From Bacteroidetes bacterium SW_9_63_38 (lineage in GTDB: Bacteria > Bacteroidota > Rhodothermia > Rhodothermales > Salinibacteraceae): a stretch of DNA of 64,000 bases. The notes under the pieces were generated by a model. The model was not told where the DNA came from and did no database searches. It saw nothing but the letters and a program-made list of their open reading frames with translations. Position 1 is the first letter of the stretch. Each line of letters begins with the position of its first letter. The stretch spans positions 62,001 through 126,000 of the forward strand of contig PXUA01000005.1 of assembly GCA_003022435.1 (NCBI GenBank), in the 5' to 3' direction. Below, one piece after another: positions 22-14,932 of the stretch. A program made the translations under genes and the position numbers.

Positions 22-1140
22 ATGGCTGAAATTGACGTTCGCGACATACGACATGTCTATGAAAAGGGCACAGAGAATGAGACGGTTGCCATCAAGCGCG
101 TGAACCTCACGCTGGAAGACGGAACCGCCAATGCGCTTCTGGGTCCCTCCGGCTGCGGAAAAACGACGCTTCTCCAGATCATTTCGGGCCTTCTGACTCC
201 CACGGACGGGCAGATTTTGATCGACGGAGAGGACGTAACGGATCAGTCTCCCGCCGAACGGGACGTGGCCCAGGTGTTTCAGTTTCCGGTAATCTACGAC
301 TCGATGTCGGTCTACGGAAACCTGGCGTTCCCGCTTCGAAACAGTGGCGTCCCGGAAGACGAAATCCGCGATCGTGTTCACTATGTGGCCGATCTGCTGG
401 ATCTGGAGGACATTTTACAGGACAGCCCCGCCGGCCTGGGCCCGGAGATGAACCAGCTCATCGCGCTCGGCCGCGGCATCATCCGGGAAGAGACGTCCGC
501 CATTCTCTTCGACGAGCCGATGACGGACGTCGAGCCGTACCGGAAGCTGACCATCCGTCGCCGCGTAAAGGAAGCCCAGCGCGAGTTCGGCATTACCGCC
601 CTGTACGTCACCCACGACCAGCACGAGGCCCTGACCTTCGCCGACAAAGTGGCGATTATGGACGTGGGCGAACTCGTGCAGTACGACACCGGGCAAAACC
701 TCTACGAAAACCCGACCAACACCTTCATCGGTCACTTTATCGGCAGCCCGGGGATGAACCTCTTTGACTGTGGGGTCGGAGAAAGCAACGGCGTTCCGTA
801 CGCCGAGCTCGGCGGACATAGCATCACAGTCGCCGAAAAGCTGCACTCGAGGATCGATCCCAGCTGGACCGACTGTCAACTCGGCATCCGACCCAACTCC
901 GTGGAGGTAGCCTTCGAGGAACCGGCGGACACCTCCGAGTACGTTCCCGCCAGTGTGAATCAGGTAGAGCTACACAGTGGCTTCCAGATCGCGACCGCTG
1001 TTCTCGAGGGCTCCGACGTTGAGGTCAAGGCCCGCGTGGCCCATGACGACCCCGTCGACGACGGCGATTTCGTCTGGCTGAAGTTCCCCGGCGAAGATGT
1101 CCGTCTGTTCCACAAACAGGAATCCCTTGAGGCCGCCTAA
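22..1140 (+). CDS. glpT: ABC transporter ATP-binding protein, glycerol-importer type (GlpT-like) with degenerate signature motif
   Basis: This 372-residue cytoplasmic ATPase should energise the permeases encoded directly downstream. Walker A (GPSGCGKT) is at about residues 41-48, the Q-loop glutamine near 87, Walker B (ILFDEP) near 161-166 and the switch histidine (VTHDQ) near 198. A TOBE-like region fills about 240-370. The family signature LSGGQ is replaced by LGPEM near 139-143, so half of the composite ATP site is probably impaired. That pattern fits one partner of an ATPase heterodimer, as in the rhizobial GlpS/GlpT pair, and the other ATPase should lie upstream of the window. A TAG at 19-21 abuts the ATG and may be that gene's stop. 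A different sugar or polyol substrate is possible, but the neighbours favour glycerol. Confidence 0.85.
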   Translation: MAEIDVRDIRHVYEKGTENETVAIKRVNLTLEDGTANALLGPSGCGKTTLLQIISGLLTPTDGQILIDGEDVTDQSPAERDVAQVFQFPVIYDSMSVYGNLAFPLRNSGVPEDEIRDRVHYVADLLDLEDILQDSPAGLGPEMNQLIALGRGIIREETSAILFDEPMTDVEPYRKLTIRRRVKEAQREFGITALYVTHDQHEALTFADKVAIMDVGELVQYDTGQNLYENPTNTFIGHFIGSPGMNLFDCGVGESNGVPYAELGGHSITVAEKLHSRIDPSWTDCQLGIRPNSVEVAFEEPADTSEYVPASVNQVELHSGFQIATAVLEGSDVEVKARVAHDDPVDDGDFVWLKFPGEDVRLFHKQESLEAA

Positions 1141-1201
1141 ACGCTCCGTTCCGCGTCGGCCTTCGTCCGTGTATTCTATTAGGAGTTCGTCCTGACCTAC
1201 G

Positions 1202-2065
1202 ATGAAACAACGACCCTGGTTATTTCTGGCACCGGCACTAATCCTGGTATCGATCAGTGCCTTCATCCCGCTGATTACCGTCATGAACTATTCGCAGCTC
1301 TCCCTCCTCCCCGGCTCAGCCCCGTACTTCATCGGGCTGGAGAACTTTCAGGCCATTCTCCGGGACCCCGCCTTCACCGGCGCGCTGGCCCGCCAGTTTC
1401 TCTTCAGCATTCTCGTCCTGATTACGGAGATCCCGCTGGGGCTCGGGCTGGCGCTCTGTATGCCGAATGAGGGTGTGGGCGTCGGCGTCAGCCTCGTGCT
1501 GCTCGGCATCCCGCTTCTCATTCCCTGGAACGTCGTCGGCATCATCTGGCGCGTGTTCACGCGCTCGGACATCGGCGTCGTGCCCGAAGTCTTTTCTTGG
1601 ATGGGCATGAATTACAACATCAGCCAGTTTACCGCCGACGCCTGGTGGACCGTCCTCGTCATGGACATCTGGCACTGGACGCCCCTGGTGATCCTGATCT
1701 GCTTCGCCGGCATTCAGGCCATCCCGCAGGAGTACTACATGGCCGCGAAGATTGACCGGGCTTCTCCCTGGAAGACATTCCGGTACGTGACGCTTCCGAA
1801 TCTCCGGGGCGTCCTCATCATCGCCGTGCTTCTGCGGCTGATGGACTCCTTCAAGATCTACGCCGAGCCGTTTGTGCTCACCGGCGGCGGTCCGGGAAGC
1901 TCGACGACCTTCCTGAGCACGTATACGTCCCGAATGGCCATCGGAGGATTCCAAATGGGTCGCGGCGCCGCAACGTCGCTGATCTACATGTTTGTCGTGA
2001 TCCTCCTGTCGTTCGTGATCTACATAATTATGCTGAATCTTGGACAAGGCGCAGGTGAAGAATAA
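1202..2065 (+). CDS. glpP: ABC transporter permease, glycerol-importer type (GlpP-like)
   Basis: This 287-residue inner-membrane protein has about six hydrophobic segments. It starts with a membrane helix (LFLAPALILVSISAFIPLI) typical of MalF/UgpA-class permeases. The cytoplasmic coupling EAA loop is visible near residues 177-200 (EYYMAAKIDRASPWKTFRYV), where it should dock on the ATPase. The gene lies 61 bp after the ATPase gene, and its stop overlaps the next start in TAATG, so translation of the two permeases is probably coupled. Assignment to glycerol rests on the gene set around it (DUF2160 protein, large binding protein, glpD). Sequence alone supports only a carbohydrate-uptake CUT1-like permease. 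Confidence 0.85.
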   Translation: MKQRPWLFLAPALILVSISAFIPLITVMNYSQLSLLPGSAPYFIGLENFQAILRDPAFTGALARQFLFSILVLITEIPLGLGLALCMPNEGVGVGVSLVLLGIPLLIPWNVVGIIWRVFTRSDIGVVPEVFSWMGMNYNISQFTADAWWTVLVMDIWHWTPLVILICFAGIQAIPQEYYMAAKIDRASPWKTFRYVTLPNLRGVLIIAVLLRLMDSFKIYAEPFVLTGGGPGSSTTFLSTYTSRMAIGGFQMGRGAATSLIYMFVVILLSFVIYIIMLNLGQGAGEE

Positions 2066-2859
2066 TGAAACGACAGTATTATCTGGTCCTGTTTTTGGTG
2101 ATCCTCGCGATCCCCATCTACTGGATGCTCAACATGTCGTTCAAGAACAACGCTGAGATCATCCAGAGACTGACCTTTTACCCGCACAACTTCACGTTCG
2201 AAAACTACAAGGAGATCATTACCTCCGAGTTTTGGCGGAGTGGGTACATCAACTCGATCTCCATGTCGATCATGAACGTGGTATTCGTAGTCATCGCAGC
2301 GGTGCCGGCGTCCTACGCTTTTTCCCGATGGGACTTCCGGGGGGACAAGCACCTGTTCTTCTGGTTCCTGACGAACCGGATGGCACCGCCGGCTGCCTTC
2401 ATGGTGCCGTTCTTCATCCTCTACTCCAACCTCAACCTCATCGACACCTACTGGGCGGTGGCCCTGGCCCACTGCCTCTTCAATCTCCCGCTCGCCATCT
2501 GGATTCTCGAGGGATTTGTCTCGGGCATTCCGAAGGAGATTGACGAAATGGCCTTCATTGACGGGCACAGCTTCGTGAGCTTCTTCTGGAAGATCTTCCT
2601 TCCGCTCATTGCTCCGGGACTGGGCGTGGCGGCATTCTTCGCCTTTATGTTCTCCTGGGTGGAGCTGCTCCTGGCCCGCACGCTTACCAACGAGGCCGCC
2701 CAGCCCATTACGGTGACGCTGACGCGGAGTCTCGGTGCCGGTGGGTGGGACTGGGGCGTGCTCGCGGCCGCTGGGGTCCTGTGTATGGTCCCCGGTGCCA
2801 TTATCGTCTTCCTCGTGCGCGACTTGCTCGCAACGGGCTTCTCGATGGGTCGCGTGTAG
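2065..2859 (+). CDS. glpQ: ABC transporter permease, glycerol-importer type (GlpQ-like)
   Basis: This is the second permease, 264 residues, of the MalG/UgpE class. It has an N-terminal helix (YYLVLFLVILAIPIYWMLNM) followed by the periplasmic segment typical of the class. The EAA coupling loop is near residues 155-175 (PKEIDEMAFIDGHSF). Its ATG overlaps the stop of the preceding permease by one base, so the two should be made in equal amounts as a heterodimer. A strong GC-rich hairpin lies about 50 bp after its stop and may end or attenuate transcription here. The glycerol specificity is inferred from context. Confidence 0.85.
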   Translation: MKRQYYLVLFLVILAIPIYWMLNMSFKNNAEIIQRLTFYPHNFTFENYKEIITSEFWRSGYINSISMSIMNVVFVVIAAVPASYAFSRWDFRGDKHLFFWFLTNRMAPPAAFMVPFFILYSNLNLIDTYWAVALAHCLFNLPLAIWILEGFVSGIPKEIDEMAFIDGHSFVSFFWKIFLPLIAPGLGVAAFFAFMFSWVELLLARTLTNEAAQPITVTLTRSLGAGGWDWGVLAAAGVLCMVPGAIIVFLVRDLLATGFSMGRV

Positions 2860-2907
2860 ACACTGCGCCCCTCTTGCGTCCCTTTCTTCGCTGCGTCCGA
2901 GTCCCTC

Positions 2908-2952
2908 AACGGAGACGGGTCCCCGTATGGTCGGGGACTCCGGCTCCGTTTG
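2908..2952 (+). terminator. Strong hairpin after glpQ, probable terminator or attenuator inside the transporter cluster
   Basis: AACGGAG (2908-2914) pairs with CTCCGTT (2944-2950), and an inner TCCCCG pairs with CGGGGA around a TATGGT loop. Only a short T-run follows. It lies between the second permease and the DUF2160 gene, so it could lower expression of the distal genes. Confidence 0.6.
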
Positions 2953-2965
2953 CGGGTGTCGGGCC

Positions 2966-3070
2966 CTAATGCAGCTTCAACTGGTCCGTTGTGCAATCGA
3001 GATACCTCAAGCTGGAGCTTGGAGCAATAGCAAACTGCTTTCCCCAAAAGATCGCTTGAAGCTGCACTAA
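2966..3070 (-). mobile_element. MITE-like element family A, copy 1 (97 bp) with 4-bp target duplication
   Basis: The element (2970-3066) is bounded by the perfect inverted repeat TGCAGCTTCAA / TTGAAGCTGCA and flanked by CTAA on both sides (2966-2969 and 3067-3070). It has no coding capacity. It is reversed relative to copies at 17552 and 57909, and it lacks the 23-bp internal palindromic segment they carry. The insertion lies between glpQ and glpU and supplies the sequence immediately upstream of the glpU reading frame. Confidence 0.85.
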
Positions 3071-3106
3071 GTGCATGCGTTTCTCCGCAACGACCTTTCT
3101 TCTGAT

Positions 3107-3403
3107 ATGCTGACTTCCCTGCCTCCCGATTGGATGCGGTGGACAATTCCCACCGTCATCTTTGTTTCTTCCATTCTTACCATGCTCGCGACCCTCACGG
3201 TCTGGGATATGAAAGACCCCGGATGGGCCCGCGAGGGAACGGTGCTTCCGATTGAGACCACTCGGGGCGACCGCGTCTTCATGAGCCTGTTGCTCATGGG
3301 CGTCTTCTTCTGCTTCTGGTTGTACGTTGTGGGATATACCCTCACCTGGATCATCCTGCTGTTCGGCGCTACCATCTCGGTGGTCGTCATCCGTACTTTT
3401 TAG
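3107..3403 (+). CDS. glpU: DUF2160 small integral membrane protein, accessory subunit of the glycerol importer (GlpU-like)
   Basis: This 98-residue protein has two or three membrane segments: WTIPTVIFVSSILTMLATL near the N-terminus, then a C-terminal pair starting FMSLLLMGVFFCFWLYVVGY. The central hydrophilic TTRGDR motif followed by a hydrophobic stretch is the pattern I associate with DUF2160, a family encoded in rhizobial glycerol transporter operons. ATG at 3107 was chosen; an in-frame GTG at 3071 would add 12 residues but starts exactly at the edge of the MITE. Its biochemical role is unknown. Position between permeases and binding protein suggests a subunit or assembly factor of the importer. 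Confidence 0.8.
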   Translation: MLTSLPPDWMRWTIPTVIFVSSILTMLATLTVWDMKDPGWAREGTVLPIETTRGDRVFMSLLLMGVFFCFWLYVVGYTLTWIILLFGATISVVVIRTF

Positions 3404-3885
3404 ATTGAGGATACAGGGGTCTGCTCGCCCGTCTCCCGAATGCTCCCACCTTCTTCTGCTCAGTGTACCGTTGGAAGCGCCCGAGTGGACCGGTCTCCCC
3501 CAAACCGGCCGCGCCTCGGGATCACTCGCCCGGTCTTCGTTGCTCGGGCAAGGCCCACCCAGGGCACCCCGGTCCCCGACGCGGGCCGTTGATGCTCCTC
3601 TCTTCCACACCATCAGACTGAGTGTCCGAGTGCCGAAACGGTGCACGGAACGGATTTTGTGAAGGTTTCTTCAATGTAGCGCCCTGGGTCCTCCCACTCA
3701 TCCGCTCTCGTTTATCCCGGTTTCTTGAACGATTTTTGTGACGGTTTCTCCCCCGCACACTCTCGCGCTCTGCGCTGTGTGTTCGGGTTGAGACACGCCC
3801 CTCTTTTCTCCGGGACAGCCTCGCGGATCCGACAGAGCCGCTTTGATTTGCCCCATTAGTTTTCCCCCAATTACCCTCTCTCCCC
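3404..3885. other. Intergenic region before the VCBS-repeat gene
   Basis: No convincing gene is seen. Two imperfect direct repeats built on ACGGATTTTGTGAAGGTTTCTTC (3651-3674) and ACGATTTTTGTGACGGTTTCTC (3728-3750) lie about 75 bp apart and could be regulator sites. An AT-richer stretch just before 3886 is the most likely promoter area for the VCBS gene. Confidence 0.4.
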
Positions 3886-5079
3886 ATGCAAACGTCTCCG
3901 ATCGACTCTTCGCGGCCCGTGTTCGTCACGGTGGTCGTCGCGCTCCTCACTGCCGGAATGGGAATCGTTCCTCCGGCCCACGGCCAGGACGACGGTCCCG
4001 GAATCACGAATACTGTGTCCGGCCTTCATGTCGCCGATCTCGACTCGGACGACGCTCCGGACGTGGTGGCCGCATCCCCGAAGGCAAGCGAGATTGCCTG
4101 GTACCAAAACGGAGATCCGCGGGGCCAATTCTCCAATCGCTCCGTCATCACTACCAACGTCCGCCTTCTGAAGTCCGTGACCGCAGCTGACCTCAACCAG
4201 GACGGCGGTACCGACGTGGTCTCCGCCTCCAGCCTCGACAACAAGGTGAGCTGGTACGAAAACACCGACGGCTATGGGAGCTTCTCGGATCAGAAGGTGA
4301 TGGCGGACGAGGCCGGCAGCCCGTACGCCGCCCACGCGGACCAGTTGGATAGCGATGGCGGTCTGGACGTCGCGTTTGCCTCCAACGGCGCCGGCGTCGT
4401 CTCCTGGTGCCGCAATCAAGACGGGGCCTTCAGTGGTAAGAACAAAATTTCGTCCGCAGTGGCTGGCGCCCGCTCGGTTCATGCCGCCGATCTGGGTGGG
4501 GACGGAACCCTCGATATCCTCTCGGCGTCCAGCTCTTTCGGTGGCACCAACAAGATTGCGTGGTACCGGAGTTCGGGAGACGGCTTCGCAAGCCAGAACA
4601 TCATTTCTCAAAAGGTGAAAGGGGCTCAGGCCGTCATCGGCGTGGATCTTGACCAGGACGACGACCCCGACGTGGTGTCCGCCTCCTCCGGCGACGGCAA
4701 GATTGCCTGGTACGAGAACACGGACGGCTACGGCACCTTCTCCGGCCAAAAGGTCGTCACGGATCAGATGGACGGGGCCCAGACGGTCTCGGCCGCCGAC
4801 ATTGATGGGGACGGCGACCTCGATCTCGTCGCGGCGTCCAATAAAAACGGGAAAGTCGCTTGGTTCGAAAACCTCGACGGCAACAAAAAATTCTCTAGCG
4901 TCAAGGTGATTGCGGACAAGGAGAATTACAAGGCGGCCTACGTGGCGGACATCGATGTGGACGGCGATCCTGACATTGCCTTCATCTCGGAAAGCAAGAG
5001 CCGCGTGGCGTGGCTCAGTAACAAGATCGACGAGGGGAAGGGCTGGTCGAATCCGAAGATCATCGGTCCGAAAAATTGA
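3886..5079 (+). CDS. Secreted FG-GAP/VCBS repeat protein, predicted seven-bladed beta-propeller
   Basis: This 397-residue protein has a signal peptide (hydrophobic FVTVVVALLTAGMGIV, probable cleavage near HGQ/DD at about residue 34). Seven repeats of about 50 residues follow, each with a DxDxDxxxD calcium-type loop (for example DLDSDDAPDVV, DLNQDGGTDVV, DIDGDGDLDLV) and then an aromatic blade motif such as IAWYEN. Seven FG-GAP blades make a closed propeller, often used for extracellular binding. No C-terminal sorting domain is evident. It is interleaved between glpU and the binding-protein gene, which is not part of the usual importer set. Whether it binds a substrate, a polymer or cells is unknown. 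Confidence 0.8.
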   Translation: MQTSPIDSSRPVFVTVVVALLTAGMGIVPPAHGQDDGPGITNTVSGLHVADLDSDDAPDVVAASPKASEIAWYQNGDPRGQFSNRSVITTNVRLLKSVTAADLNQDGGTDVVSASSLDNKVSWYENTDGYGSFSDQKVMADEAGSPYAAHADQLDSDGGLDVAFASNGAGVVSWCRNQDGAFSGKNKISSAVAGARSVHAADLGGDGTLDILSASSSFGGTNKIAWYRSSGDGFASQNIISQKVKGAQAVIGVDLDQDDDPDVVSASSGDGKIAWYENTDGYGTFSGQKVVTDQMDGAQTVSAADIDGDGDLDLVAASNKNGKVAWFENLDGNKKFSSVKVIADKENYKAAYVADIDVDGDPDIAFISESKSRVAWLSNKIDEGKGWSNPKIIGPKN

Positions 5080-5373
5080 CCCACTCCCCCGGACAGGGAA
5101 TCTCTGTGGGATTATAAGATTAACCGCAGTACACTGGTGCTCCCTTGGGACCTCGCCGTTTTCGAGATTGGACGTGCATCCCGACGGCTGTCGCGGATGC
5201 ACAGAAAGATCAAGGCCACGCGTGACCCACAAGGGGCCCCAGTGAAGAAATCGGCTGAGATCTACCTGGGAATCTGTGTGACCTTACGAGATTAATCGCC
5301 GGACGACTGATTTTTTTCTCACGACTCGAACGGGAAAAGTGCACGCCCGACGATTCGGCCGTGCAGGCCGGCT

Positions 5374-5492
5374 CTTCCCTGTAGCCCTTCCCTGTAGGAC
5401 TTCCCTGTAGGCTCCGGTCGCCGAACGGAGCCTCCTCCCTGTAGAGCCCTCATCCCTGTAGAGCCCTCATCCCTGTGGAGCCCTCATCCCTG
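5374..5492. repeat. Short tandem repeats built on TCCCTGTAG
   Basis: Three units of about 13 bp (CTTCCCTGTAGNN) are followed by a small GGCTCCG/CGGAGCC hairpin and then three units of 17 bp (TCCCTGTAGAGCCCTCA), the last with one substitution. It is a degenerate microsatellite-like array with no coding frame of note. Confidence 0.75.
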
Positions 5493-5540
5493 CCGCCGGT
5501 CGCTCCAATCGTCTTGTTCGTTGCCGAAAGCGCCGATTCT

Positions 5541-5713
5541 GGAAATCTCAGATTTCCTAGTGCAGCTTCAACGGGTCCGTTGTGCAATCGAGGACTCCAC
5601 CACGTGGGATGACCCTTCGGGCCCCTGAAATTCGCCAAAACTCCCGCTCCGCCCTTCGGTTGGAGCGGTCGAACACGGCGAATTTCGATCGTTTCTGGGA
5701 ATCTGAGATTCCC
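5541..5713. repeat. Pair of near-identical 17-bp palindromes
   Basis: GGAAATCTCAGATTTCC (5541-5557) and GGGAATCTGAGATTCCC (5697-5713) are both preceded by TTCT and lie 139 bp apart. They could be ends of a decayed element or operator-like dyads. The half copy of MITE family A starts at the right edge of the first. Confidence 0.5.
5557..5592 (+). mobile_element. MITE family A, truncated half copy
   Basis: CTAG is followed by one terminus of the family (TGCAGCTTCAAC, then GGTCCGTTGTGCAATCGAG), matching the first 32 bases of copy 1 with one substitution. The other end is missing, so this is a deletion remnant. Confidence 0.75.
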
Positions 5714-6471
5714 TACCTTCAGATCTCCGAGACACCGATTTATTTCATGAGTCGCTACGCTCGTCTCTTCAGGGCCGGAAAAGACTTGTTTCCGGGCCCT
5801 GAGTGGAAACGAGGAAGTGCCTTCGGGGTGCAATACGTCGCCTGAAAACGGGCACTTCTGTGAAGGAAAACCGAGGACTTCGAGGGTACAGAATGAGCCT
5901 TGACACTGCACTACTCTCCTCCCTGCAGCGACGCCCGAGTGTCTCATATCGTTTGCGGCCAGGACGTTATTGCCTTCGCCGGAGGGGAAAATAGGGGCGC
6001 CCCGACTTTGGGAAGAAGGAAGCATTTTCCTGGAAGAATAGATTACTGAACGGAGAAAAGCGCTTTCTATACTACGGTCAGTCCGAATCGAGGAGGTCGC
6101 TGCAAGGCAAAGTTTGCTTGTGTTGTATGATTCTGTTCCCGGGAAAGCGACATCGCTTTCCCTCGTCAAGATACGGGAGCAGAAGACATACAAGCCTTCA
6201 TGGCTTTGCCTCTTGCCTGATTAAGCGCTGTTCCTATGGGGCGTGCATTTGGACATTGTTCAGCGTCGCGGAGCGGGCGTCTGCTCCGTCGAACTGGAGA
6301 TGTGTCCCGGGAGACGAAGGCCCCGGTCGTGGGATCCACGTCCAAGGCACGAGAGGGGACGCCCCCCTCCCCTGTCTTCCGGACTGCCCCAACGCACGGC
6401 CGGAGAGCAGGCCGGGTGATCCCCCTCGATCGAACTCGATAACTTTTCTCATTACCCCAAAGAGGTTACTT

Positions 6472-8301
6472 ATGGATACAGACAATACGCGCACAACGTC
6501 ACGGTCGATGGTGGCGCTTGTGATGCTATGTGTCGCGGCAATTGGGCTCGCGCCCTTTGCCACCGTCGAGGCCCAAGACTGGCCCGATGAACCCAATTAT
6601 CCGGATATTTCGAAGAGCGAAGCTCGCAGCTACGCTCAAGAGAAGTACGGTCCGCTGAACGACCGCCAGAAGGCGGCCGTGAAGTACGCAATGGAATTTC
6701 AGCCGTCGGTGATGACGCTGAAGGAGCAGATCGACGAGTTGATGTGGTTCGAGGAAAACGCCGAGGACCTTCGCGGCACTTCGATCTCCTCCGTCGCCGA
6801 GACCATTAAGACCCACAAGTGGGAGTCCGACGAGCTGGCCCCCGCCTTCGCCGAGATCACGGGCATCAACGTGACGCACAACATCATCGGTGAGGGAAGT
6901 CTGGTGGAGAAGCTCCAGACGCAGCTTGCCTCCGGTCGGAAAGTCTACGACGTGTACGTCAACGACGCCGACCTGATCGGCATGCACACGCGTCTCCAGA
7001 GCGCGGTGAATCTGACCGACTACATGAACGGCGAGGGAAGTGAGTTTACCAACCCGACCCTCGACATGGACGACTGGATGAACCCCGAGTTCGGCCAGAA
7101 CTACGAGGGCGACCAGCTTCAGCTTCCGGACCAGCAGTTCGCGAACCTCTACTGGTTCCGTCACGACTGGTTTACCGATGAGGAGCTGTCCAGCCAGTTC
7201 GAAGAGAAGTACGGCTACGAGCTGGGTGTGCCGCGCAACTGGGCCGCCTACGAGGACATTGCCGAATTCTTTACGGAGGACGTGTCTCCGGAAGATGTCG
7301 GTGTGGACGCCAAGGAAGTGTACGGCCACATGGACTACGGCAAGAAGAGCCCGTCGCTCGGATGGCGCTTCACGGACGCCTGGCTGTCGATCGCCGGGGT
7401 CGGGGATACCGGTCTTCCGAACGGCAAGCCCGTGGACGAGTGGGGCATTCGCGTAGAGGACCAGATCCCGGTCGGCTCGACTGTGGACCGCGGTGGTGCC
7501 ACCAACGGCCCGGCCGCCTACTACGCCACGCAGAAGTACATTGACTGGATGAAGGATTACGCGCCGCCCTTCGCGACGTCGATGCGCTGGTCCGAAGCCG
7601 GCCCGGTGCCGTCGCGTGGAAACATTGCGCAGCGCCCCTTCCAGTACATCACCTTCCTCTCGGCCGATCCCTTCACGAAGAAGGGCTCCGCGGTGACCGA
7701 CGACGAGGGCAACCCCCTCTGGCGGATGGCGCCGACGCCCCACGGCAAGTACTGGGACGACGGCATGAAGGTCGGCTACCAGGACGCCGGTAGCTGGACC
7801 ATCCCGGAGATCACCACGGGCAACAAGCGGCACGCGGCCTGGATGTGGATGCAGTTCGCCTCCTCCAAGACCGTGTCCCTCAACAAATTCAACGTGGGCA
7901 ATACGCCTGTGCGTAGCTCCACGGTGAACTCCGAGTACTGGGAGGAGCACGAGGGTGAGCTTGGTGGCCTGATTACCTTCTACACCTCCCCCGTCGAGGA
8001 CAAGTGGACGGACACGGGCCTCAACGTGCCCCACTACCCGCTCCTCGCCGAGCAGTGGTGGAAGCAGGTGGCCCAGGCGGTAACGGGCAGCAAGTCTGTG
8101 GAGCAGGCCATGAACGACCTGGCCAGCATCCAGAACTCGCTGATGCAGCGTCTCCGTCTCGAGAAGTACTCGCCGGAGCTGAATGAGCCGCGCTCGCGCG
8201 AGTATTGGCTCAATCAAGAAGGCGCTCCGAAGGCCGAACGGCCTGACGAGGAGCCGGTGACGAAGCCGTACGACGAGCTCATCGAGGAGTGGGAGAACTA
8301 A
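6472..8301 (+). CDS. glpV: Periplasmic glycerol-binding protein of the ABC importer (GlpV-like)
   Basis: This 609-residue substrate-binding protein is long for its class. ATG at 6472 was chosen because it follows a GAGG motif at normal spacing and gives a clean signal peptide (hydrophobic MVALVMLCVAAIGLAPFA, cleavage near VEA/QD). The mature N-terminal region holds MEFQPSVMTLKEQIDELMWF and a THKWESDELAPAFAEITGI segment, then VEKLQTQLASGRKVYDVYVN. This is the layout of the rhizobial glycerol-binding protein GlpV, from memory of the family. It should capture glycerol or a related polyol in the periplasm and deliver it to the permeases. A strong terminator follows at once, so this gene ends its transcript. 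The 1.4-kb upstream gap suggests its own promoter, allowing the usual excess of binding protein over permease. Confidence 0.8.
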   Translation: MDTDNTRTTSRSMVALVMLCVAAIGLAPFATVEAQDWPDEPNYPDISKSEARSYAQEKYGPLNDRQKAAVKYAMEFQPSVMTLKEQIDELMWFEENAEDLRGTSISSVAETIKTHKWESDELAPAFAEITGINVTHNIIGEGSLVEKLQTQLASGRKVYDVYVNDADLIGMHTRLQSAVNLTDYMNGEGSEFTNPTLDMDDWMNPEFGQNYEGDQLQLPDQQFANLYWFRHDWFTDEELSSQFEEKYGYELGVPRNWAAYEDIAEFFTEDVSPEDVGVDAKEVYGHMDYGKKSPSLGWRFTDAWLSIAGVGDTGLPNGKPVDEWGIRVEDQIPVGSTVDRGGATNGPAAYYATQKYIDWMKDYAPPFATSMRWSEAGPVPSRGNIAQRPFQYITFLSADPFTKKGSAVTDDEGNPLWRMAPTPHGKYWDDGMKVGYQDAGSWTIPEITTGNKRHAAWMWMQFASSKTVSLNKFNVGNTPVRSSTVNSEYWEEHEGELGGLITFYTSPVEDKWTDTGLNVPHYPLLAEQWWKQVAQAVTGSKSVEQAMNDLASIQNSLMQRLRLEKYSPELNEPRSREYWLNQEGAPKAERPDEEPVTKPYDELIEEWEN

Positions 8302-8320: not shown

Positions 8321-8387
8321 GAATTCCCCCGTTCCAGCAGGGCATACCTTCACAGGATGTCCTGCTGGGATTCGGGGAATTTTATTT
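8321..8387 (+). terminator. Strong rho-independent terminator after glpV
   Basis: An outer stem AATTCCCC/GGGGAATT encloses an inner stem CCAGCAGG/CCTGCTGG with a further small pairing in the loop. TTTTATTT follows. It lies 20 bp after the stop codon. Confidence 0.85.
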
Positions 8388-8395
8388 GGCAATTG

Positions 8396-8414
8396 GGTAT
8401 GCGCTTCGCATACC
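8396..8414. promoter_or_regulatory. Perfect small hairpin upstream of the porin gene
   Basis: GGTATGCG and CGCATACC pair around a CTT loop. It lies about 135 bp before the porin start and could be an operator or a 5' leader hairpin. Confidence 0.4.
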
Positions 8415-8549
8415 TTAATAGGGAGATGATCTGATCTGGATGTTCTGCGATCAGTTTCTTACCGGCACGAGGGGGACCTTCGATCTCCTCCCTTCTGTCG
8501 TTTGCTCTCGCACCCTTTCACGAACACACTCTTCAATCTACACGGACTT

Positions 8550-9806
8550 ATGATTAAGTCTCTTACTAATCAGAAGCTTTACGGCCTCGTGGCCGGGCTC
8601 ATGAGCCTTCTTCTCATGGCCTTCGTCGCCACGCCGGCCCAGGCGCAAATGGACGACGGCGAGCTGCCGAAGGTTGATGTCGGTGGTGCCGTCTCCTCCG
8701 ACGCTCAGGCAATTATCGTTGAGGACTACGACAGCGACGGTCCTGCTGGTCAGGATGGCTACACTGAGACCACTTCTCTCGGATTCAACCGCGTTGCTGC
8801 TCAGATTCAGGCGAACGTGCAGTTCTCCGAGAATGTGAGCGGATACGTGGAGTTGTCTGCCGAACCGGAGGAGAACCCTGACTTCACAAAGTTTACGACG
8901 AACATTGACTTCGTGTACGTGAACGTCAATGTCGCCGAGAACCTGATGGTGCAGGCGGGTACGCCGGGCATCGGTACCGCGAACTTCCCGCGCTGGTCCG
9001 ATGGTGCGCTCGTGCAGGGCAACCCGCTCGTCGGAAACTCCCTCGCCTTCCCGGGCACAGCCGGTAACGGTGGTGTGAAGCTCATCGGAAGTTACCCCGC
9101 GTTTGGGTTTGACCTGACACTCACCCGTGGATTCGGTGGCGGCCAGGACGTTAGCTCGAATGCTGACGACATCGTGAGGGATGGCTCCGGTATCGACATT
9201 TACGGCAAGGCCCGGTACACGGGATCCGACCTCTTCAACCTTGGTGCCGGCGCTGCCTTTCACACCGGTTCCAAGGGGCTCTCGGTCGCTGCTGGGGACG
9301 GTGATTACTACAACGTTCCTTCTGAGATCATCTCCACCGCTTCGGGGGTATCTAGTCGACCGGGCTTCTCGAACTCCCCGACCCTCCCGAGCGACATCAT
9401 CTTCAACGTTGACGGTGAAGTCATGGCGGGTCCGTTCTCCGCGAACGCCCTCCTCGGCTACGCTACCGAGAGCGCCGAGACGGACTCTGGCACAGACGAT
9501 GCCGCAATCTTCGGCGAGCTCGGTGCCAAGTACGATGTCAATGACAGCTTCTTCGTGGCCGGTCGCTTCAGTACTATGAGCGATCAGACCGACTATGACA
9601 GCGACCCTGAGCAGACTCTCATGAGTCGCTTCGCGCTCGGTGCGGGATACACATACGAGGCGGCGATGCTGAAGCTCGAGTACGCCAACCAGAGCCAGGC
9701 AACGGATCCTGCGGACACCGACGCCGGCGATGATGGCACATTTGCGTTCGCCAACCAGGACCACAATTGGCAGGCAATTACCGCACAGTTCTCGGTGGCC
9801 TTTTAA
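8550..9806 (+). CDS. Outer-membrane beta-barrel protein, probable porin
   Basis: This 418-residue protein has a signal peptide (LYGLVAGLMSLLLMAFVATPAQAQ; the ATG at 8550 puts it at the N-terminus). Alternating polar/hydrophobic strands follow, and the protein ends in Phe (FSVAF), as expected for insertion by the BAM complex. Strand-like segments include NRVAAQIQANVQFSENVSGY and FALGAGYTYEAAMLKLEY. Acidic loops (SDADDI-, DTDAGDDG-like) fit a halophile. It resembles general or substrate-specific porins rather than a TonB receptor, since no plug domain is present. Its place between the glycerol-binding protein and glpD suggests that it may admit glycerol or small solutes through the outer membrane. 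That role is inference. Confidence 0.7.
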   Translation: MIKSLTNQKLYGLVAGLMSLLLMAFVATPAQAQMDDGELPKVDVGGAVSSDAQAIIVEDYDSDGPAGQDGYTETTSLGFNRVAAQIQANVQFSENVSGYVELSAEPEENPDFTKFTTNIDFVYVNVNVAENLMVQAGTPGIGTANFPRWSDGALVQGNPLVGNSLAFPGTAGNGGVKLIGSYPAFGFDLTLTRGFGGGQDVSSNADDIVRDGSGIDIYGKARYTGSDLFNLGAGAAFHTGSKGLSVAAGDGDYYNVPSEIISTASGVSSRPGFSNSPTLPSDIIFNVDGEVMAGPFSANALLGYATESAETDSGTDDAAIFGELGAKYDVNDSFFVAGRFSTMSDQTDYDSDPEQTLMSRFALGAGYTYEAAMLKLEYANQSQATDPADTDAGDDGTFAFANQDHNWQAITAQFSVAF

Positions 9807-9867
9807 CTCCACCGACGAACCACAAATTCCTGGCCTTCAATCTTTGACGACGTAGTGTCCAGGTGGC

Positions 9868-9911
9868 CTGGGGCCGTCTCGCGCAAGCGGGGCGGTCCCA
9901 GTGCTTTTTTG
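9868..9911 (+). terminator. Terminator after the porin gene
   Basis: CTGGGGCCGTC pairs with GGGCGGTCCCAG (two mismatches) around a GC-rich loop, followed by TGCTTTTTTG. It lies 62 bp after the stop codon. Confidence 0.65.
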
Positions 9912-10042
9912 TGGGCACTTAATCGAAGATTCTTCGCTCTCTTCAACCGTCAATACCGTTCTCAGATCGCTTTCCCATCTGGGATTGCGTGGAAGCCCGG
10001 ACGCGTGGACGCAGTGACGGTGCACTCTCCGCCCTCCGTGAT

Positions 10043-10140
10043 CAGGGCAATCGCATCTTGTTCTCCGCAGCACACAGGAGGATGTGAGCACAGCGGTACT
10101 GCCTCCATCCATCCACGCCTCCGCTCATTCATATCTCCGC
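10043..10140 (+). repeat. Interspersed repeat family C, copy 1 (truncated)
   Basis: It starts with AGGGCAATCGCATCTTG and continues with the shared core GAGCACAGCGGTACTGCCTC and CATCCACGCCTCCGCTCATTC, then stops. The distal half ending in GCAATCGCCCTGCC is absent. Confidence 0.7.
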
Positions 10141-10291
10141 GTCTCGATCTCTCCGCGTCTCCCATCTCTCAGAACTCACGTGCTCAATCCAAATCGTTCT
10201 CGAATCTCGAAGACCCGGGATTGCTGTCGCAACATCCGTCCCTCTCTTCCGTGAGAGCACTTCGCTTTATTAGGAACTACCTCCCTCTCTT

Positions 10292-10678
10292 ATGAAATCA
10301 TCACTGGTGTTCGCGCTCGGGACAGCATTGCTTTTGACCGCCTGCGGTGGAACGAGCATGATACTCAACCGGGAGAAGGTCCGGTACATCCGCAAAAACG
10401 ACGTCTCCGCCAAGGATAGCAGCCATATCATGGAGGGAGAGCTTTACCGCGGCATGCCCGTCCAACACGCCATTGCGACCCTCGGCGAGCCGTTGAAAAC
10501 CGATACGTCGAGCTGGAAAGACGGAACGCAGCTCAAGTTGACGTACCGGGCTCGCCCAAGCTCCAGTGGGGGGTACATGCCTCGGGCCAACGTCTACGCC
10601 ACCAACGACAATGTGACGCGGTGGGAGAATCTGGACAAAATCCCTCGCTTCGACGCGTACTACCGGCCGGGGAATTAA
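10292..10678 (+). CDS. Small predicted lipoprotein, BamE/SmpA-like fold possible
   Basis: This 128-residue protein has a lipoprotein signal (KSSLVFALGTALLLTAC, lipobox LTAC with Cys at residue 18). The mature part contains ELYRGMPVQHAIATLGEP, which resembles the helix pair of SmpA/BamE/OmlA-type lipoproteins (G-M-x-x-x-x-V, then L-G-x-P). A basic, strand-rich C-terminus ends FDAYYRPGN. It is probably membrane-anchored and may assist outer-membrane assembly or stability. It could equally be a lineage-specific lipoprotein, as the resemblance is short. It stands alone on the plus strand with repeats on both sides. Confidence 0.55.
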   Translation: MKSSLVFALGTALLLTACGGTSMILNREKVRYIRKNDVSAKDSSHIMEGELYRGMPVQHAIATLGEPLKTDTSSWKDGTQLKLTYRARPSSSGGYMPRANVYATNDNVTRWENLDKIPRFDAYYRPGN

Positions 10679-10693
10679 TGGGTTTGGGCGTTT

Positions 10694-10725
10694 GGGAGCA
10701 GTGTCCCGACTACTGTCGGGGTGTG
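10694..10725 (+). repeat. GTGTCCCGAC hairpin repeat, copy 1
   Basis: GGGAGCAGTGTCCCGAC then TACTGTCGGGGTGTG forms a CCCGAC/GTCGGG stem. It is nearly identical (about 30 of 32 bases) to the reverse complement of 19343-19375. It starts 16 bp after the lipoprotein stop and could act as a terminator. Confidence 0.65.
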
Positions 10726-10911
10726 TACGTCTCCCGTCTATAGCGACATCTGACGACACCCGGTGCACCCATCTGCCCTCTTGCCCGTGCTGCCGAACCG
10801 ATCTGCGGTCCCGCATCTGCCCAGCGGTCAGTAACAAATCGAGACGGGATCCCGGGCGTCGCACGACGTCAACCGTACGGTGCCAGAAGCCATCTTCACG
10901 TTCCCTCCCCC

Positions 10912-11066
10912 CACGGCAACCGCATCTTACGCCCCCCTCGGCATGTCGATTGTCAGACGCACCGTGCGCCACTCCCACACCCACGTACTTTTCGGCACAA
11001 TTGGGTGATATGGGCAGCGGAGTTCCCTTCGCCTGCCCTGAGTTTTTAACATGCAATCGCCCTGCC
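10912..11066 (+). repeat. Interspersed repeat family C, diverged copy 2
   Basis: It starts CACGGCAACCGCATCTT and ends ACATGCAATCGCCCTGCC like other members. The interior is poorly conserved apart from a GGGCAG-containing segment. Confidence 0.5.
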
Positions 11067-11349
11067 CTCCCCCCAAGCTTCCGTGACAAGAGGTGCGCCC
11101 GAAAAGTTGGATTGTTACACGAAAGCTCCAATCTCTTTCACCGCATCTCGTGTCAACGTCCCGACGCGCAACGTCCCAACGTACAAGGCGCACTAGTGCG
11201 TCACGATCCCGGAAATACCGGCTGAAAGAGGCAGATGAGCGGATCCTCCCTTCATAGAAGCTGAACGTACGATCGCCCGGCTGGAAGCCCTTTTCTGCTT
11301 GCGATTGGCCGCGCGCACGCGTTCCTTATTGTAGATGTGGACGTTTGTA

Positions 11350-11406
11350 AGCAGTGTCCCGATGGCATCCCGACGGCTGTCGGGACTGCCTGTGTCGGGG
11401 TGTTAT
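11350..11406 (+). repeat. GTGTCCCGA hairpin repeat, copy 2 with inserted hairpin
   Basis: GCAGTGTCCCGA and TGTGTCGGGGTGT flank an inner hairpin GGCATCCCGAC/GTCGGGACTGCC (11364-11390). The 18 bases GCATCCCGACGGCTGTCG at 11365-11382 recur exactly at 5176-5193. Confidence 0.6.
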
Positions 11407-11599
11407 GTGCGTAGGTGGGTGGGCGACTGGAATATAGGCGAACGTCGTCCCCTCAGAATTTCCGTCGAATGGTGTCGTGCATACACGGGCCTACGTACAC
11501 ACCTACACGCCTACAGACGTACACACCTACAGCCCTCAATGAGGCTTGCGGAGTTGGCATAAACGCTCTTTTCGTCGCTCTTCACCCTCCTCACGATTT

Positions 11600-13177
11600 A
11601 TGAAGCGCAGTCAAGGCATCGACGCAATTGAATCTCGCGAGACCCCCTGGGACGTCGTCGTCATCGGCGGCGGGGCCACCGGGCTCGGGTGTGCCCTCGA
11701 GGCGGCCGCCCGCGGCTACGACACCCTCCTCCTCGAAATGCACGACTTTGCCAAGGCCACGTCCAGCCGCTCGACAAAGCTGGTCCACGGCGGCGTGCGG
11801 TACCTGGAGCAATTCCAGGTCGGCCTCGTCTTCGAGGCGCTCCAGGAACGCGAGCGCCTGCAGGACAACGCCCCCCACCTCGTCCGCAACCTCTCCTTTG
11901 TCGTGCCGAGCTACAAGTGGTGGGAGGCGCCGTACTACGGCATCGGCATGAAGGTGTACGACCTGCTGGCTGGGAGCCAGAACTTCGGCACGTCCCGCTA
12001 CCTGAACAAGGAGAAGACGCTGGAGCACCTGCCCACTCTCGAGCCCGAGGGTCTGACCGGCGGCATCGAGTACTTTGACGGCCAGTTCGACGACACCCGC
12101 CTCGCGGTGAACATGGCGCAGACCGCCACCGAGCACGGCGGCGTGGCCGTCAACTACATGAGGGTGACTGACCTGACGAAGACGAACGGGCAGGTCGACG
12201 GCGTCATTGCGCACGACTGGGAGTCGGACACCACGCACGAGATCAAGGCCGAGACGGTCATCAACGCCACCGGCATCTTTACGGACACGATCCGGGAGAT
12301 GGACGACGCCGACGCCCAGCCCACCCTCCGCCCCAGCCAGGGCACGCACATCGTCCTGGACCGGTCGTACCTCCCCGGCGACAGCGCCATCATGATCCCG
12401 AAGACGGACGACGGGCGCGTGCTCTTTGCGATTCCCTGGAACGACCGCCTGGTGGTGGGCACAACCGACATGCCGGTCGACGACGTGAGCCACGAGCCCA
12501 CGCCCACCGAGGAGGAAATTTCCTACCTCATTGAGCACTCCAACCGGTACCTCGCCAAGACGCTGACGCCGGACGATGTGCTCAGCACGTATGCCGGCAT
12601 TCGCCCCCTAGTGGCCCCGCCGGGCAGCAGCGGCGACACCTCCGAGATCTCGCGGACCCATCAGCTCTCGGTATCCGACAGCGGCCTCGTCACCATCTCC
12701 GGCGGCAAGTGGACCACCTACCGGCAGATGGCCGAGGACACCCTCGACGAAGCCATCGACCACAGCGGCCTCGACAAGCGGCCGTCGGTCACCGGCGACC
12801 TGAAGTTGCACGGCGCCACCGAGAACGCCGATCAGTACGGCGACCTCAAGCACTATGGCGCCGACGCACCGGGCTTGCAGGAACTCATGGACGAACGCCC
12901 CGAACTGGAAGAGCAACTCGACGAGCGGCTTCCCATTCGCGGCGCGCAGGTGGTGTGGGCGGTCCGGCACGAGATGGCCCGCGCCGTGGAGGACGTGCTC
13001 GCCCGCCGTACACGGTGCCTGCTCCTAAATGCGCAGGCCAGTATCGACATTGCCCCGCGCGTGGCGGAGCTCATGGCCGAGGAGCTGGACCAGGACGACG
13101 CGTGGGTGCAAAACCAGGTGGACGAATACACCGAGCTGGCCGAGGGCTACCTCATCCCGGAGACCGTGATGGCGTAG
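11600..13177 (+). CDS. glpD: Aerobic glycerol-3-phosphate dehydrogenase
   Basis: This 525-residue FAD enzyme oxidises sn-glycerol 3-phosphate to dihydroxyacetone phosphate and passes electrons to the quinone pool at the inner membrane. The N-terminal dinucleotide motif VVVIGGGATGLGCALEAA is at about residues 18-35. The family motif ATSSRSTKLVHGGVRYLEQ follows near 55-75, and ISGGKWTTYRQMAED lies near residue 365. The C-terminal DAO_C-like domain closes the protein. ATG at 11600 was chosen because upstream in-frame sequence is repeat-derived. It completes the catabolic half of the glycerol cluster. Glycerol kinase, needed to make its substrate, is not in the window. Confidence 0.95.
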   Translation: MKRSQGIDAIESRETPWDVVVIGGGATGLGCALEAAARGYDTLLLEMHDFAKATSSRSTKLVHGGVRYLEQFQVGLVFEALQERERLQDNAPHLVRNLSFVVPSYKWWEAPYYGIGMKVYDLLAGSQNFGTSRYLNKEKTLEHLPTLEPEGLTGGIEYFDGQFDDTRLAVNMAQTATEHGGVAVNYMRVTDLTKTNGQVDGVIAHDWESDTTHEIKAETVINATGIFTDTIREMDDADAQPTLRPSQGTHIVLDRSYLPGDSAIMIPKTDDGRVLFAIPWNDRLVVGTTDMPVDDVSHEPTPTEEEISYLIEHSNRYLAKTLTPDDVLSTYAGIRPLVAPPGSSGDTSEISRTHQLSVSDSGLVTISGGKWTTYRQMAEDTLDEAIDHSGLDKRPSVTGDLKLHGATENADQYGDLKHYGADAPGLQELMDERPELEEQLDERLPIRGAQVVWAVRHEMARAVEDVLARRTRCLLLNAQASIDIAPRVAELMAEELDQDDAWVQNQVDEYTELAEGYLIPETVMA

Positions 13178-13207
13178 GCCTCGCCTCCCCATCTGTTGCG
13201 ACACACC

Positions 13208-13250
13208 GGGAGTCGGACGGTCCATCGGGGCCGTGCGGCTCCCGTTTGTG
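13208..13250 (+). terminator. Terminator-like hairpin after glpD
   Basis: GGGAGTCGGACGG pairs with CCGTGCGGCTCCC (two mismatches), followed by GTTTGTGTT. It lies 30 bp after the stop. Confidence 0.6.
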
Positions 13251-13666
13251 TTGCGGGATTCCGTCCACGGCGCGCTCGGTCTGCCGCTCCCGTGTCCCAA
13301 CCGAAGTTCCTTCTCCTCCTACCCTCCGAACACATACAACGTTTTACGTTCGAACGCTCACCGTCCCCTTCGCTCGCTCAGGAAGAGCGTCTTCGTCCAT
13401 ACCGCTAGTGTGCCCGTGTTACTGCTCGTTCCGCGCTCCTGCCGCCCTTCATCACCGCACTTGTCGGCACAGCCATTCTGATCCATCTGGCGACGGCGTC
13501 GTCTCCAACGTACTCCTCAAAGACACACTGGGCCAAAATTCCAGCTGGATCGTCGGCACCGCCTGAATCTGTGAAGCGTGAAGAGTGATGTGTGGGACGT
13601 AATGTGTGAGACGTGATCCGTGATTCTCTCTCCGATGCAGAACCTCAATCCGGCTTCCGCATCCCC

Positions 13667-13834
13667 CACGGCAATCGCATCTTGCTCTCCGGAGCCCCCG
13701 AGAGGAGAGGGAGGGGCGCAGCGTGAATGCCCCCACGCATCCACGCCTCCGCTCGTTTCAGGCAGTCGGGCCGATCAACGGCAAAATCGCCTCCTACGTC
13801 TCCGGACCTCTGACAACGTGCAATCGCCCTGCCC
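13667..13834 (+). repeat. Interspersed repeat family C, copy 3 (full length)
   Basis: It runs from CACGGCAATCGCATCTTGC to CAACGTGCAATCGCCCTGCC, with the core CATCCACGCCTCCGCTC and the segment GGGCCGATCAACGGCAAAAT. It ends 4 bp from the fbp stop codon and may form part of the fbp 3' end. Confidence 0.75.
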
Positions 13835-13837
13835 GCA

Positions 13838-14932
13838 TCACGTCTTCAGCGTCTCCGCCCGCTCGGGCTCGCCCTGCAGGAACGCCTCGGCACGCCGCAC
13901 CATCTGGTCGCTGCCGATAAACAGCGGCGTCCGCTGGTGCAACTTCTCGGGCGTCTTTTCCAGGATGGGCTGGTGCCCGTCGGTCGCGCGCCCCCCGGCC
14001 TGCTCGGCAATGAAGGCCATCGGATTGGCCTCATACATGAGGCGCAGCTTCCCTTCCGGATTCCCCTGCGTGGCGGGGTACATGTAAATGCCGCCCTTCA
14101 GCAGGTTGCGGTGGAAGTCCGTGACGAACGACCCGATGTACCGCGTCTTGACGGGCCGGTTCGTCTCCGGATCGAACTCCTGCAGCCAATCGAGGTAGTT
14201 GCGCAGCCCTTCCTGGAAGGAGTGGTGGTAGCCGACATTGATGGAAAAGATGTTGCCCGTGTCCGGCGTCGTGAGATTCGGGTGCGAGAGCAGAAACTCC
14301 CCAATCGAGGGATCGAGCGTGAAGCCGTGCACGCCGTTGCCGGTGGTGAAGACGAACATCGTGGACGAGCCGTAGACCACGTAGCCGGCGGCCACCTGCT
14401 CGGTCCCCGGCTGCAGGGCGGCGTCGAGGGTCGGCTCCTCCTCGTCGTGGTCGTCGGGCAGCCGGTAGATGCTGAAGATCGTCCCGACCGACACGCACAC
14501 GTCGATGTTGGAGGACCCGTCCAGCGGGTCGAGCAGGACGATGTAGTCGCCGTCTCCGCCTTCCACCTTCGTGTTTAGGGGAATGGCCTCCGCGTGCTCC
14601 TCGGACCCGATGAGGCAGCACTCGCCGCCCCGCCGAAGGGCCAGCACGAACTCCCGGTGCGCCAGCGCGTCCATCTTCTGTTGCACCTCCCCCTGCACGT
14701 TGGTTTCACCGGTACTCCCGTAGATGTCGATGAGCCCGGCCTTCCGCATGTCGCGGTTGACGATTTTCGCCGCCAGCCCAATGTCCCGCAGCAGTCGCGA
14801 AAACGAGCCCGTTGAATGCGGAAAGCGATCCTCCTGCTCGATGATAAACTGTTCGAGGGTCTCGAACTCGCCGAGCTGTGCGTCCATCGTGGACGGGCTG
14901 GCATTGGACGAGGCGTCGTTCGCGGTGCTCAT
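13838..14932 (-). CDS. fbp: Fructose-1,6-bisphosphatase, class I
   Basis: This 364-residue cytoplasmic enzyme hydrolyses fructose 1,6-bisphosphate to fructose 6-phosphate, the committed step of gluconeogenesis. The metal-binding motif LLDPLDGSSNID is near residues 130-142. An N-terminal GETNVQGEVQQKMD segment and the substrate motif GKLRLMYEANPMAFIAEQAGG near 310-330 are all class I hallmarks. The length is close to the usual 330-360, with an acidic insert (DDHDEEEP) typical of halophiles. It is convergent with glpD. Functionally the two connect, since growth on glycerol requires this enzyme for hexose synthesis. Confidence 0.95.
   Translation of the reverse strand: MSTANDASSNASPSTMDAQLGEFETLEQFIIEQEDRFPHSTGSFSRLLRDIGLAAKIVNRDMRKAGLIDIYGSTGETNVQGEVQQKMDALAHREFVLALRRGGECCLIGSEEHAEAIPLNTKVEGGDGDYIVLLDPLDGSSNIDVCVSVGTIFSIYRLPDDHDEEEPTLDAALQPGTEQVAAGYVVYGSSTMFVFTTGNGVHGFTLDPSIGEFLLSHPNLTTPDTGNIFSINVGYHHSFQEGLRNYLDWLQEFDPETNRPVKTRYIGSFVTDFHRNLLKGGIYMYPATQGNPEGKLRLMYEANPMAFIAEQAGGRATDGHQPILEKTPEKLHQRTPLFIGSDQMVRRAEAFLQGEPERAETLKT

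Follow-up and report, generated by a model that had tools for sequence, protein, structure and literature searches.

An ATP-binding cassette (ABC) importer for glycerol, GlpSTPQUV, has been described in Rhizobium leguminosarum VF39 (Ding et al., 2012, as cited in the portion of PMC7912956 available to us), glycerol-dependent effects are reported for Cupriavidus relatives in the same portion, and glpV of Ralstonia RRA rose 88-fold on glycerol according to the available text of PMC11223650. Salinibacter ruber appears in the consulted parts of PMC5228507 and PMC3863723 as a main bacterium of saturated brines and as a known user of glycerol (Sher, 2004; Elevi Bardavid and Oren, 2008, both as cited in PMC3863723); the parts of the literature reached by our search name no route by which glycerol enters it. 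The DNA analysed here, referred to as the window, is a stretch of 64,000 nucleotides (63% G+C) from Bacteroidetes bacterium SW_9_63_38 (GCA_003022435.1, contig PXUA01000005.1; G000:C5:62001-126000), whose genome is 84% complete and belongs to the genus Salinibacter, in keeping with the halophilic host that an earlier note on the window had assumed. Together with a 14.5-kb stretch that ends just inside the window start (L002), its first part holds a locus that is, by gene content, a GlpSTPQUV-type glycerol ABC importer, a known kind of system in a new lineage. Very probably, the locus provides a complete glycerol uptake and entry pathway in which the importer replaces a passive route and has one complete ATP site.

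Two distinct, adjacent ABC ATPase genes (glpS and glpT) precede two BPD_transp_1 permease genes, a DUF2160 protein (GlpU) is encoded between the permeases and a long GlpV-type binding protein, and glpK and glpD lie in the same cluster. All importer genes that the earlier note had read from the window (an ATPase, two permeases, the DUF2160 protein and the binding protein) were recovered, as were glpD and the class 1 fbp gene on the opposite strand, and upstream, where the note had suggested looking, a second ATPase gene ends at window position 7 and is preceded by glpK. The note's identification of the binding protein as long and GlpV-type, outside the maltose and trehalose families, was borne out by its closest sequences, with identities of 49.6–53% in the 16 closest plasmid matches listed and of 48–68% in loci outside the genus, most of which adjoin glpSTPQU; maltose and trehalose binders were met only at the level of fold or as weak profile matches, as would be expected for the binding protein of a CUT1 system. 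In NCBIfam, the ATPase and permeases matched Ugp and Glc models best, in every case far below the cut-off, and the DUF2160 protein and GlpV had no match. The window genome has a single DUF2160 copy, and no inverted or direct repeat was found in the gap between araC and glpK.

GlpV was found in seven of 100 genomes, all within Salinibacter (0 of 87 outside it), that is, in seven of the 13 genomes of the genus including the window genome, and the other six copies are 79–81% identical to that of the window, which argues against a chance resemblance. Relatives at this level of identity occur in Salinibacter altiplanensis and in two metagenome-assembled genomes (MAGs) titled uncultured Bacteroidetes. 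The order from glpK to glpD is identical in all seven mapped copies, with glpK of G006 cut by a contig end, and in an eighth carrier, G002 (62% complete), glpK-glpS-glpT-glpP-glpQ are followed by the beginning of glpU, where the contig stops. DUF2160 matches in eight of 28 genomes searched identify these same eight carriers, seven of them over the cut-off and the one in G002, a fragment cut by the contig end, under it.

The family to which Salinibacter belongs (f1) was represented by 27 of the genomes searched, and comparison among them suggests what the importer may have replaced. Among family genomes without the importer, 14 carry glpK and glpD on a single contig, and in 13 of these (G001, G008, G009, G012, G013, G014, G016, G018, G020, G021, G022, G023, and G024), glpK and glpD are neighbours with 50–205 bp between their matches, and the fourteenth, G015, has glpD, a 1.1-kb gap, glpK, glpF, and a barrel gene. 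In the importer carriers, glpSTPQUV and a barrel gene lie between glpK and glpD; the importer therefore sits inside a native pair, and in G001 and G012 araC diverges from glpK as it does in the window.

Between glpD and fbp1 of the window are two overlapping pieces, in different frames, that resemble the first 41 residues of GlpF from G015 (E 8e-8): 13439-13498, with 50% identity over 20 residues, and 13489-13560, with 79% over 24. They score 43.1 bits, whereas none of 500 codon shuffles of this interval exceeded 24.6, and at the DNA level 90 aligned columns show 72% identity with glpF of G015. At the same place, the glpF of G002 is also broken but extends farther, with 43% identity over 150 residues and 69% over 62, interrupted by a frame change and a stop; it is the source of the weak, under-cut-off MIP match of that genome. 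No such remnant was found behind glpD in G003, G004, G005, G007, or G010, and the G006 contig ends 231 bases behind glpD; an intact MIP gene gave no match in the window genome at its 84% completeness. In the window lineage, then, the channel gene has decayed and the importer has been preserved. A facilitator coexisting with the importer was considered for the importer carriers and rejected, as no MIP protein passed the cut-off in 13 Salinibacter genomes; outside the family, 12 of 16 relatives in the order that were searched have MIP proteins.

In most importer-free family genomes a membrane protein of about 346 residues (x346; for example L101:12061-13101), with about seven hydropathy segments, is encoded beside glpD or the barrel gene. 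Five copies had no Pfam match at E 0.1, six proteins had no NCBIfam match, and distant relatives gave only chance-level Pfam matches under the cut-off. The protein was found in 14 of 100 genomes, namely 13 of the family and, from outside the family but in the same order, G045. Its neighbourhood was examined in 12 family genomes (all but G026), and in each of them glpD is at most one gene away. Its haloarchaeal relatives reach 48% identity, and a plasmid search returned eight records, of which five were examined; the copy of the haloarchaeon Natribaculum is directly behind glpK, a Microbacterium plasmid has glpK and glpD directly behind the gene, alcohol and aldehyde dehydrogenase genes stand in front of it in Rhodococcus, a DeoR/GlpR-type regulator gene is beside it in Rubrobacter, and no glpK was seen near it in Haladaptatus. 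A membrane protein encoded beside haloarchaeal glycerol kinases was predicted to represent a new family of glycerol transporters (rrnAC0550-like), with bacterial relatives near glycerol or propanediol genes, in the consulted part of Anderson et al. (2011; PMC3102087), and x346, which fits this description, probably belongs to the same family.

No two of the three routes occurred together in any of the 27 family genomes. The importer is present in eight (G000, G002–G007, and G010), x346 in 13 (G001, G008, G009, G012, G013, G014, G016, G018, G020, G021, G022, G024, and G026), and a MIP protein over the cut-off in one (G015), leaving five with none of the three, namely G011 (83% complete, no glpK match) and G017, G019, G023, and G025 (56–67% complete). 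Zero overlap between 13 and eight genomes among 27 would have a probability of 0.0014 if the genomes were independent, and they are related.

Beyond the genus, the best 80 of 138 stretches with GlpV relatives in named genomes were kept. Sixty-nine of these have glpQ on the same strand, 67 of them with a glpU hit, and of the other two, DUF2160 was recognised on translation in L091 and is absent in L079; the 11 loci without glpQ are L027–L032, L039, L045, L060, L080, and L085. Phylogenetic analysis of GlpV placed Salinibacter in a group of 13 rows (SH-aLRT 100) together with Desulfobacterales, a Myxococcota-ranked MAG, a MAG of spirochaetal origin, and five orphan GlpVs from gammaproteobacteria; the rhizobial, rhodobacteral, and halomonad copies fall outside this group. 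The GlpS and GlpT trees group Salinibacter with L024, L025, and L026 (support 100 and 98), the last from a bin labelled GSL, which we take to stand for Great Salt Lake. The earlier note had described the transporter type as known from rhizobia; the GlpSTPQUV type was confirmed, and the copy here lies off the rhizobial branch. A rhizobial origin was rejected accordingly, all three trees joining Salinibacter to deltaproteobacterial relatives. A single gain of the importer on the species tree was also rejected. The rpoB tree (G002 had no rpoB match) groups the window genome with the x346 carriers G008 and G009; its glpD groups with those of other importer carriers (SH-aLRT 99), as does its glpK (92; G006 left out as too short). 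Given this conflict, seen with one marker and quick trees, the locus may have moved within the genus.

The two ATPases have lost different motifs. Counts were made on rows with a usable tblastn frame (71 for GlpS, 72 for GlpT) plus G002, giving 72 and 73, and L021–L023 were left out as coming from the same genomes as L015, L019, and L020. GlpS has the signature S-G-G in 72 of 72 and the H-loop His in none (Thr in 56, Pro in 11, Ser in four, Ala in one), GlpT has the His in 73 of 73 and S-G-G in none, and the complementary pattern holds in all 72 loci that have both; both proteins conserve the Walker A Lys, apart from one gapped row each. In the trees the 71 rows of GlpS fall into a single clade, as do the 72 of GlpT, and the pattern therefore most likely predates the spread of the family. 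ABC ATPases dimerise head-to-tail, and the two losses would thus fall in the same composite site and leave one complete site. From the motifs, that complete site is made up of the Walker A, Walker B, and H-loop of GlpT with the signature of GlpS, the other is degenerate, and one site would do most of the hydrolysis. Heterodimeric exporters such as TAP and TM287/288 have similar one-sided ATP sites. Consensus and degenerate sites are discussed in the available part of PMC7756565, and DppDF, an importer with two different ATPases, is compared with them in that of PMC12136057; a literature search that left subscription papers mostly outside its coverage found no report of the complementary pattern in GlpST.

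GlpV was modelled with AlphaFold (pLDDT 84, pTM 0.86). The best solved structure by fold was 5iai from Agrobacterium (TM-score 0.82 by target length), followed mostly by maltose, trehalose, and oligosaccharide binders; 5iai was also best in a profile search (E 1.7e-13), GlpV being about 200 residues longer, and a search of the PDB with the GlpV sequence alone gave no hit. GlpU was modelled with moderate confidence as three helices (pTM 0.57), and W21, W24, T25, P50, G66, D67, and R68 are invariant over the 57 of 68 rows that were aligned. GlpU is a nearly constant small membrane partner and perhaps stabilises the GlpPQ-GlpST complex.

The porin proposed in the earlier note as an outer-membrane entry fared partly well. 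All seven mapped importer carriers have in their clusters a homologue of the barrel gene, 39–40% identical to the window copy, and a barrel-like gene (homologous at 27–34%, or of Porin_4 type) is present in ten of 13 other informative loci, giving 17 of 20 in total; the contigs of G002 and G013 were not informative, and no such gene was recognised in L103, L104, or L116. Porin_4 was assigned by Pfam in L107 and L110 and by likeness in L112 and L115, and several copies have no Pfam match above the cut-off. This conservation supports, without proving, a role of the barrel protein in glycerol entry. The note's fbp neighbour likewise stood in part. The same copy flanks the glycerol genes in G000, G001, G002, G008, and G009; five further importer carriers showed no such gene behind glpD, and the G006 contig ends there. 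A neighbouring fbp common to all importer carriers was therefore rejected, only G000 and G002 among the carriers having it. Two class 1 fbp genes bracket the glycerol locus in the window genome, and likewise in G001, G008, and G009.

The whole locus reads, in the window strain, araC (reverse), glpK, glpS, glpT, glpP, glpQ, glpU, a gene for an FG-GAP repeat protein, glpV, the barrel gene, a small open reading frame (ORF), glpD, and fbp (reverse); farther upstream, from left to right, are a class 1 fbp, gpsA, and the AraC-like gene, all on the minus strand, then glpK and glpS (Table 1). The names gpsA, AraC-like, glpK, and the upstream fbp come from reading the translations and from the maps of relatives. 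The start of glpU is probably the ATG rather than the GTG, as the ATG matches the N-termini of orthologues and the GTG falls at the end of a repeat. Isoelectric points of 4.3–4.8 were obtained for six non-membrane proteins of the locus, matching the expectation for a salt-in organism.

Table 1. Features of the glycerol locus. Positions refer to the window unless marked L002.
Feature	Position	Strand	Remarks
Second class 1 fbp	L002:6810-8006	-	Upstream of glycerol locus
glpK	L002:11183-12742	+	Upstream of glpS, outside window
glpS, ATPase	L002:12898-14007 (3' end = window 1..7)	+	VSGGE signature intact, no H-loop His
glpT, second ABC ATPase	22..1140	+	Walker A, Q-loop, Walker B, H-loop intact; signature replaced (LGPEMNQ)
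glpP, permease	1202..2065	+	BPD_transp_1
glpQ, permease	2065..2859	+	BPD_transp_1
Dispersed repeat copy with inverted ends, glpQ-glpU gap	2966..3069	+	Not a working part
glpU, DUF2160 membrane protein	3107..3403 (ORF open from GTG 3071; probable start ATG 3107)	+	PF09928, 70 bits vs cut-off 28
FG-GAP repeat protein gene, glpU-glpV gap	3886..5079	+	Not a transporter part
glpV, long periplasmic binding protein, 609 aa	6472..8301	+	SBP_bac_1; hydrophobic, signal-like N-terminus
Probable outer-membrane beta-barrel ("porin") gene	8550..9806	+	OMP_b-brl under cut-off
Small ORF between barrel gene and glpD, lipoprotein-like N-terminus	10292..10678		No Pfam match
glpD, FAD-dependent glycerol-3-phosphate dehydrogenase, native family copy	11600..13177	+	Homology
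glpF (MIP) remnant, frame-broken, first 41 residues only	13439..13560	+	Similarity to G015 GlpF
fbp1, class 1 fructose-1,6-bisphosphatase	13838..14932	-	Homology

Several points weigh against the account of an importer in place of a passive route. The regulator gene divergent from glpK is AraC-like and not glpR; the barrel assignment is weak, with L109 and L111 lacking a Pfam match and the window and L101 matching only under the cut-off; on the rpoB tree two changes between x346 and importer are enough, and few independent events therefore underlie the exclusivity; and five of 27 genomes show no route, four of them at 56–67% completeness, the window genome itself being at 84%. To these are added the kinase-linked GlpV relatives, the interrupted operon, and the residues kept at both ATP sites. 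If the importer mainly took up another small polyol (a tetritol or pentitol) or glycerol-3-phosphate, with glpK and glpD merely linked to it, the solved relative nearest to GlpV, 5iai, which we take to be a ribitol complex, would be explained, as would the Ugp and Glc models among the distant NCBIfam matches; but in each of the seven mapped Salinibacter copies the importer has glpK on one side and glpD on the other, many proteobacterial loci have at least one of the two next to it, published relatives are glycerol-induced or linked to glycerol uptake in the accounts consulted, and no polyol dehydrogenase was among the families found in the cluster, and we regard this alternative as improbable. 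A chiefly sensory GlpV is suggested by five marine gammaproteobacterial loci (L027, L028, L030, L031, and L032), whose GlpV relatives, 54–59% identical to that of the window and without permeases, sit directly or after one small ORF upstream of large proteins; these are HAMP histidine kinases by Pfam in four, and in L030 presumably so, its gene sizes equalling those of L028. Such pairs are possibly glycerol sensors built on the same binding protein, and homology to GlpV alone is no proof of transport. A DUF3369-HD response regulator gene follows in L027 and L028. No histidine kinase was among the families found beside the window glpV, however, and each of the seven mapped Salinibacter copies has glpV after glpSTPQU, so that a sensor in place of a transport receptor is hardly credible here.

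Decay of the importer in the window strain, with glpV severed from its operon and the system not working, would account for the 3.07-kb gap between glpU and glpV, which holds the unrelated FG-GAP gene and repeats, may uncouple glpV from its operon partners, and sets this strain apart from the six other mapped Salinibacter loci, in none of which the FG-GAP gene was found. It would also account for further changes in spacing such as the ORF at 10292-10678, which has no match in other Salinibacter maps. A dispersed repeat of 32 nt occurs four times in the window (2970-3001, 5561-5592, 17640-17671, and 57997-58028; none in 100 shuffles), one copy just before the DUF2160 gene and one in the gap, the two bracketing the region from glpU to the FG-GAP gene. 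A 17-nt tandem repeat of three units lies in the same gap (5431-5492). Yet all six importer genes keep full-length open frames, glpS, glpT, glpP, glpQ, and glpV are 68–88% and glpU 55–65% identical to other Salinibacter copies, and the window GlpV keeps the conserved residues of an alignment with 52 of the 80 loci, which makes loss of function very unlikely. More weight attaches to the proposal that GlpS and GlpT lost their motifs by harmless drift and that both ATP sites hydrolyse equally, which we nevertheless consider unlikely. The asymmetry is read from sequence alone, and the catalytic Walker B Glu is kept in every GlpS (72 of 72) and GlpT (73 of 73), unlike many exporters with degenerate sites, in which it is not kept. 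Against drift, each lost motif is universally kept by the partner, both losses fall on the same composite site, and three other ABC ATPases from the same loci (MalK-like or other), aligned with GlpS and GlpT, keep both motifs. These controls are few, the three being those aligned of eight other ATPase-like ORFs; a simple pattern finds the signature in six of the eight and misses it in L026 and L116, whose ORFs resemble other ABC classes.

In the proposed pathway, glycerol would cross the outer membrane, probably through the barrel protein, and be captured in the periplasm by GlpV, which would pass it to an inward-directed GlpPQ channel powered by the GlpS-GlpT heterodimer. GlpK would then phosphorylate it, GlpD would oxidise the glycerol-3-phosphate to dihydroxyacetone phosphate, and fructose-bisphosphatase would permit sugar synthesis; a link with Dunaliella, as drawn in the earlier note, could be made on ecological grounds. 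The importer block within the native glpK-glpD pair would thus stand in for a passive route, GlpF in the window lineage and the presumably passive x346 in sister lineages. It is a concrete candidate, with named genes, for glycerol entry in Salinibacter. The presence of one of three unrelated routes per locus, and never two, would amount to a natural experiment that sets active against passive uptake where water activity is low, and x346 at this locus lends independent support to the predicted transporter family shared with haloarchaea. With its conserved one-sided site, GlpST could serve as a simple importer for studying whether a single hydrolysis in each cycle suffices. A more far-reaching version, advanced tentatively, holds that GlpSTPQUV is a type I importer in which an ancient, fixed division of labour between the ATPases disabled one site, that about one ATP is spent per glycerol, and that in Salinibacter this pump displaced both GlpF and x346 at one locus. 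Were it true, x346 could be tested directly as a new family of glycerol channels, and the imported substrate would be a cheap, uncharged one. The added interest of the locus lies in a swap at a single place with a visible remnant, the link to a predicted transporter family, and the fixed one-sided ATP site.

Compared with known systems, the aquaglyceroporin GlpF (PF00230) is a passive channel, which occupies the glycerol locus in G015, survives as a decayed remnant in the window and G002, and is not matched over the cut-off in any of the 13 Salinibacter genomes. The predicted rrnAC0550-like transporter differs from an ABC importer in being a single membrane protein; x346, its inferred member with haloarchaeal relatives, holds the same locus in Salinibacteraceae that lack GlpV and has no match in the window genome. 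Maltose and other CUT1 importers (MalFGK2) are kin by ATPase sequence and binding-protein fold, GlpS matching solved CUT1 ATPases over residues 3–358 of 369 and GlpT matching them with TOBE_2 just over the cut-off and OB_MalK under it. MalK, however, is a homodimer with two complete ATP sites, whereas the motif losses here predict a heterodimer with complementary defects in place of two identical, complete sites. The rhizobial operon begins with a glpR repressor gene, a feature of that operon and not of the transporter; the Salinibacter locus has the AraC-like gene in its stead, places glpK first and glpD last with the barrel gene between glpV and glpD, and has GlpV, GlpS, and GlpT on a branch with deltaproteobacterial relatives. 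A further difference lies in GlpV itself, which is 51–53% identical to those Rhizobium plasmid copies that it matches over the full length. The locus is like the GlpSTPQUV systems of R. leguminosarum, Cupriavidus, and Ralstonia in its two ATPases, two permeases, glpU, long binding protein, and clustered glpK and glpD.

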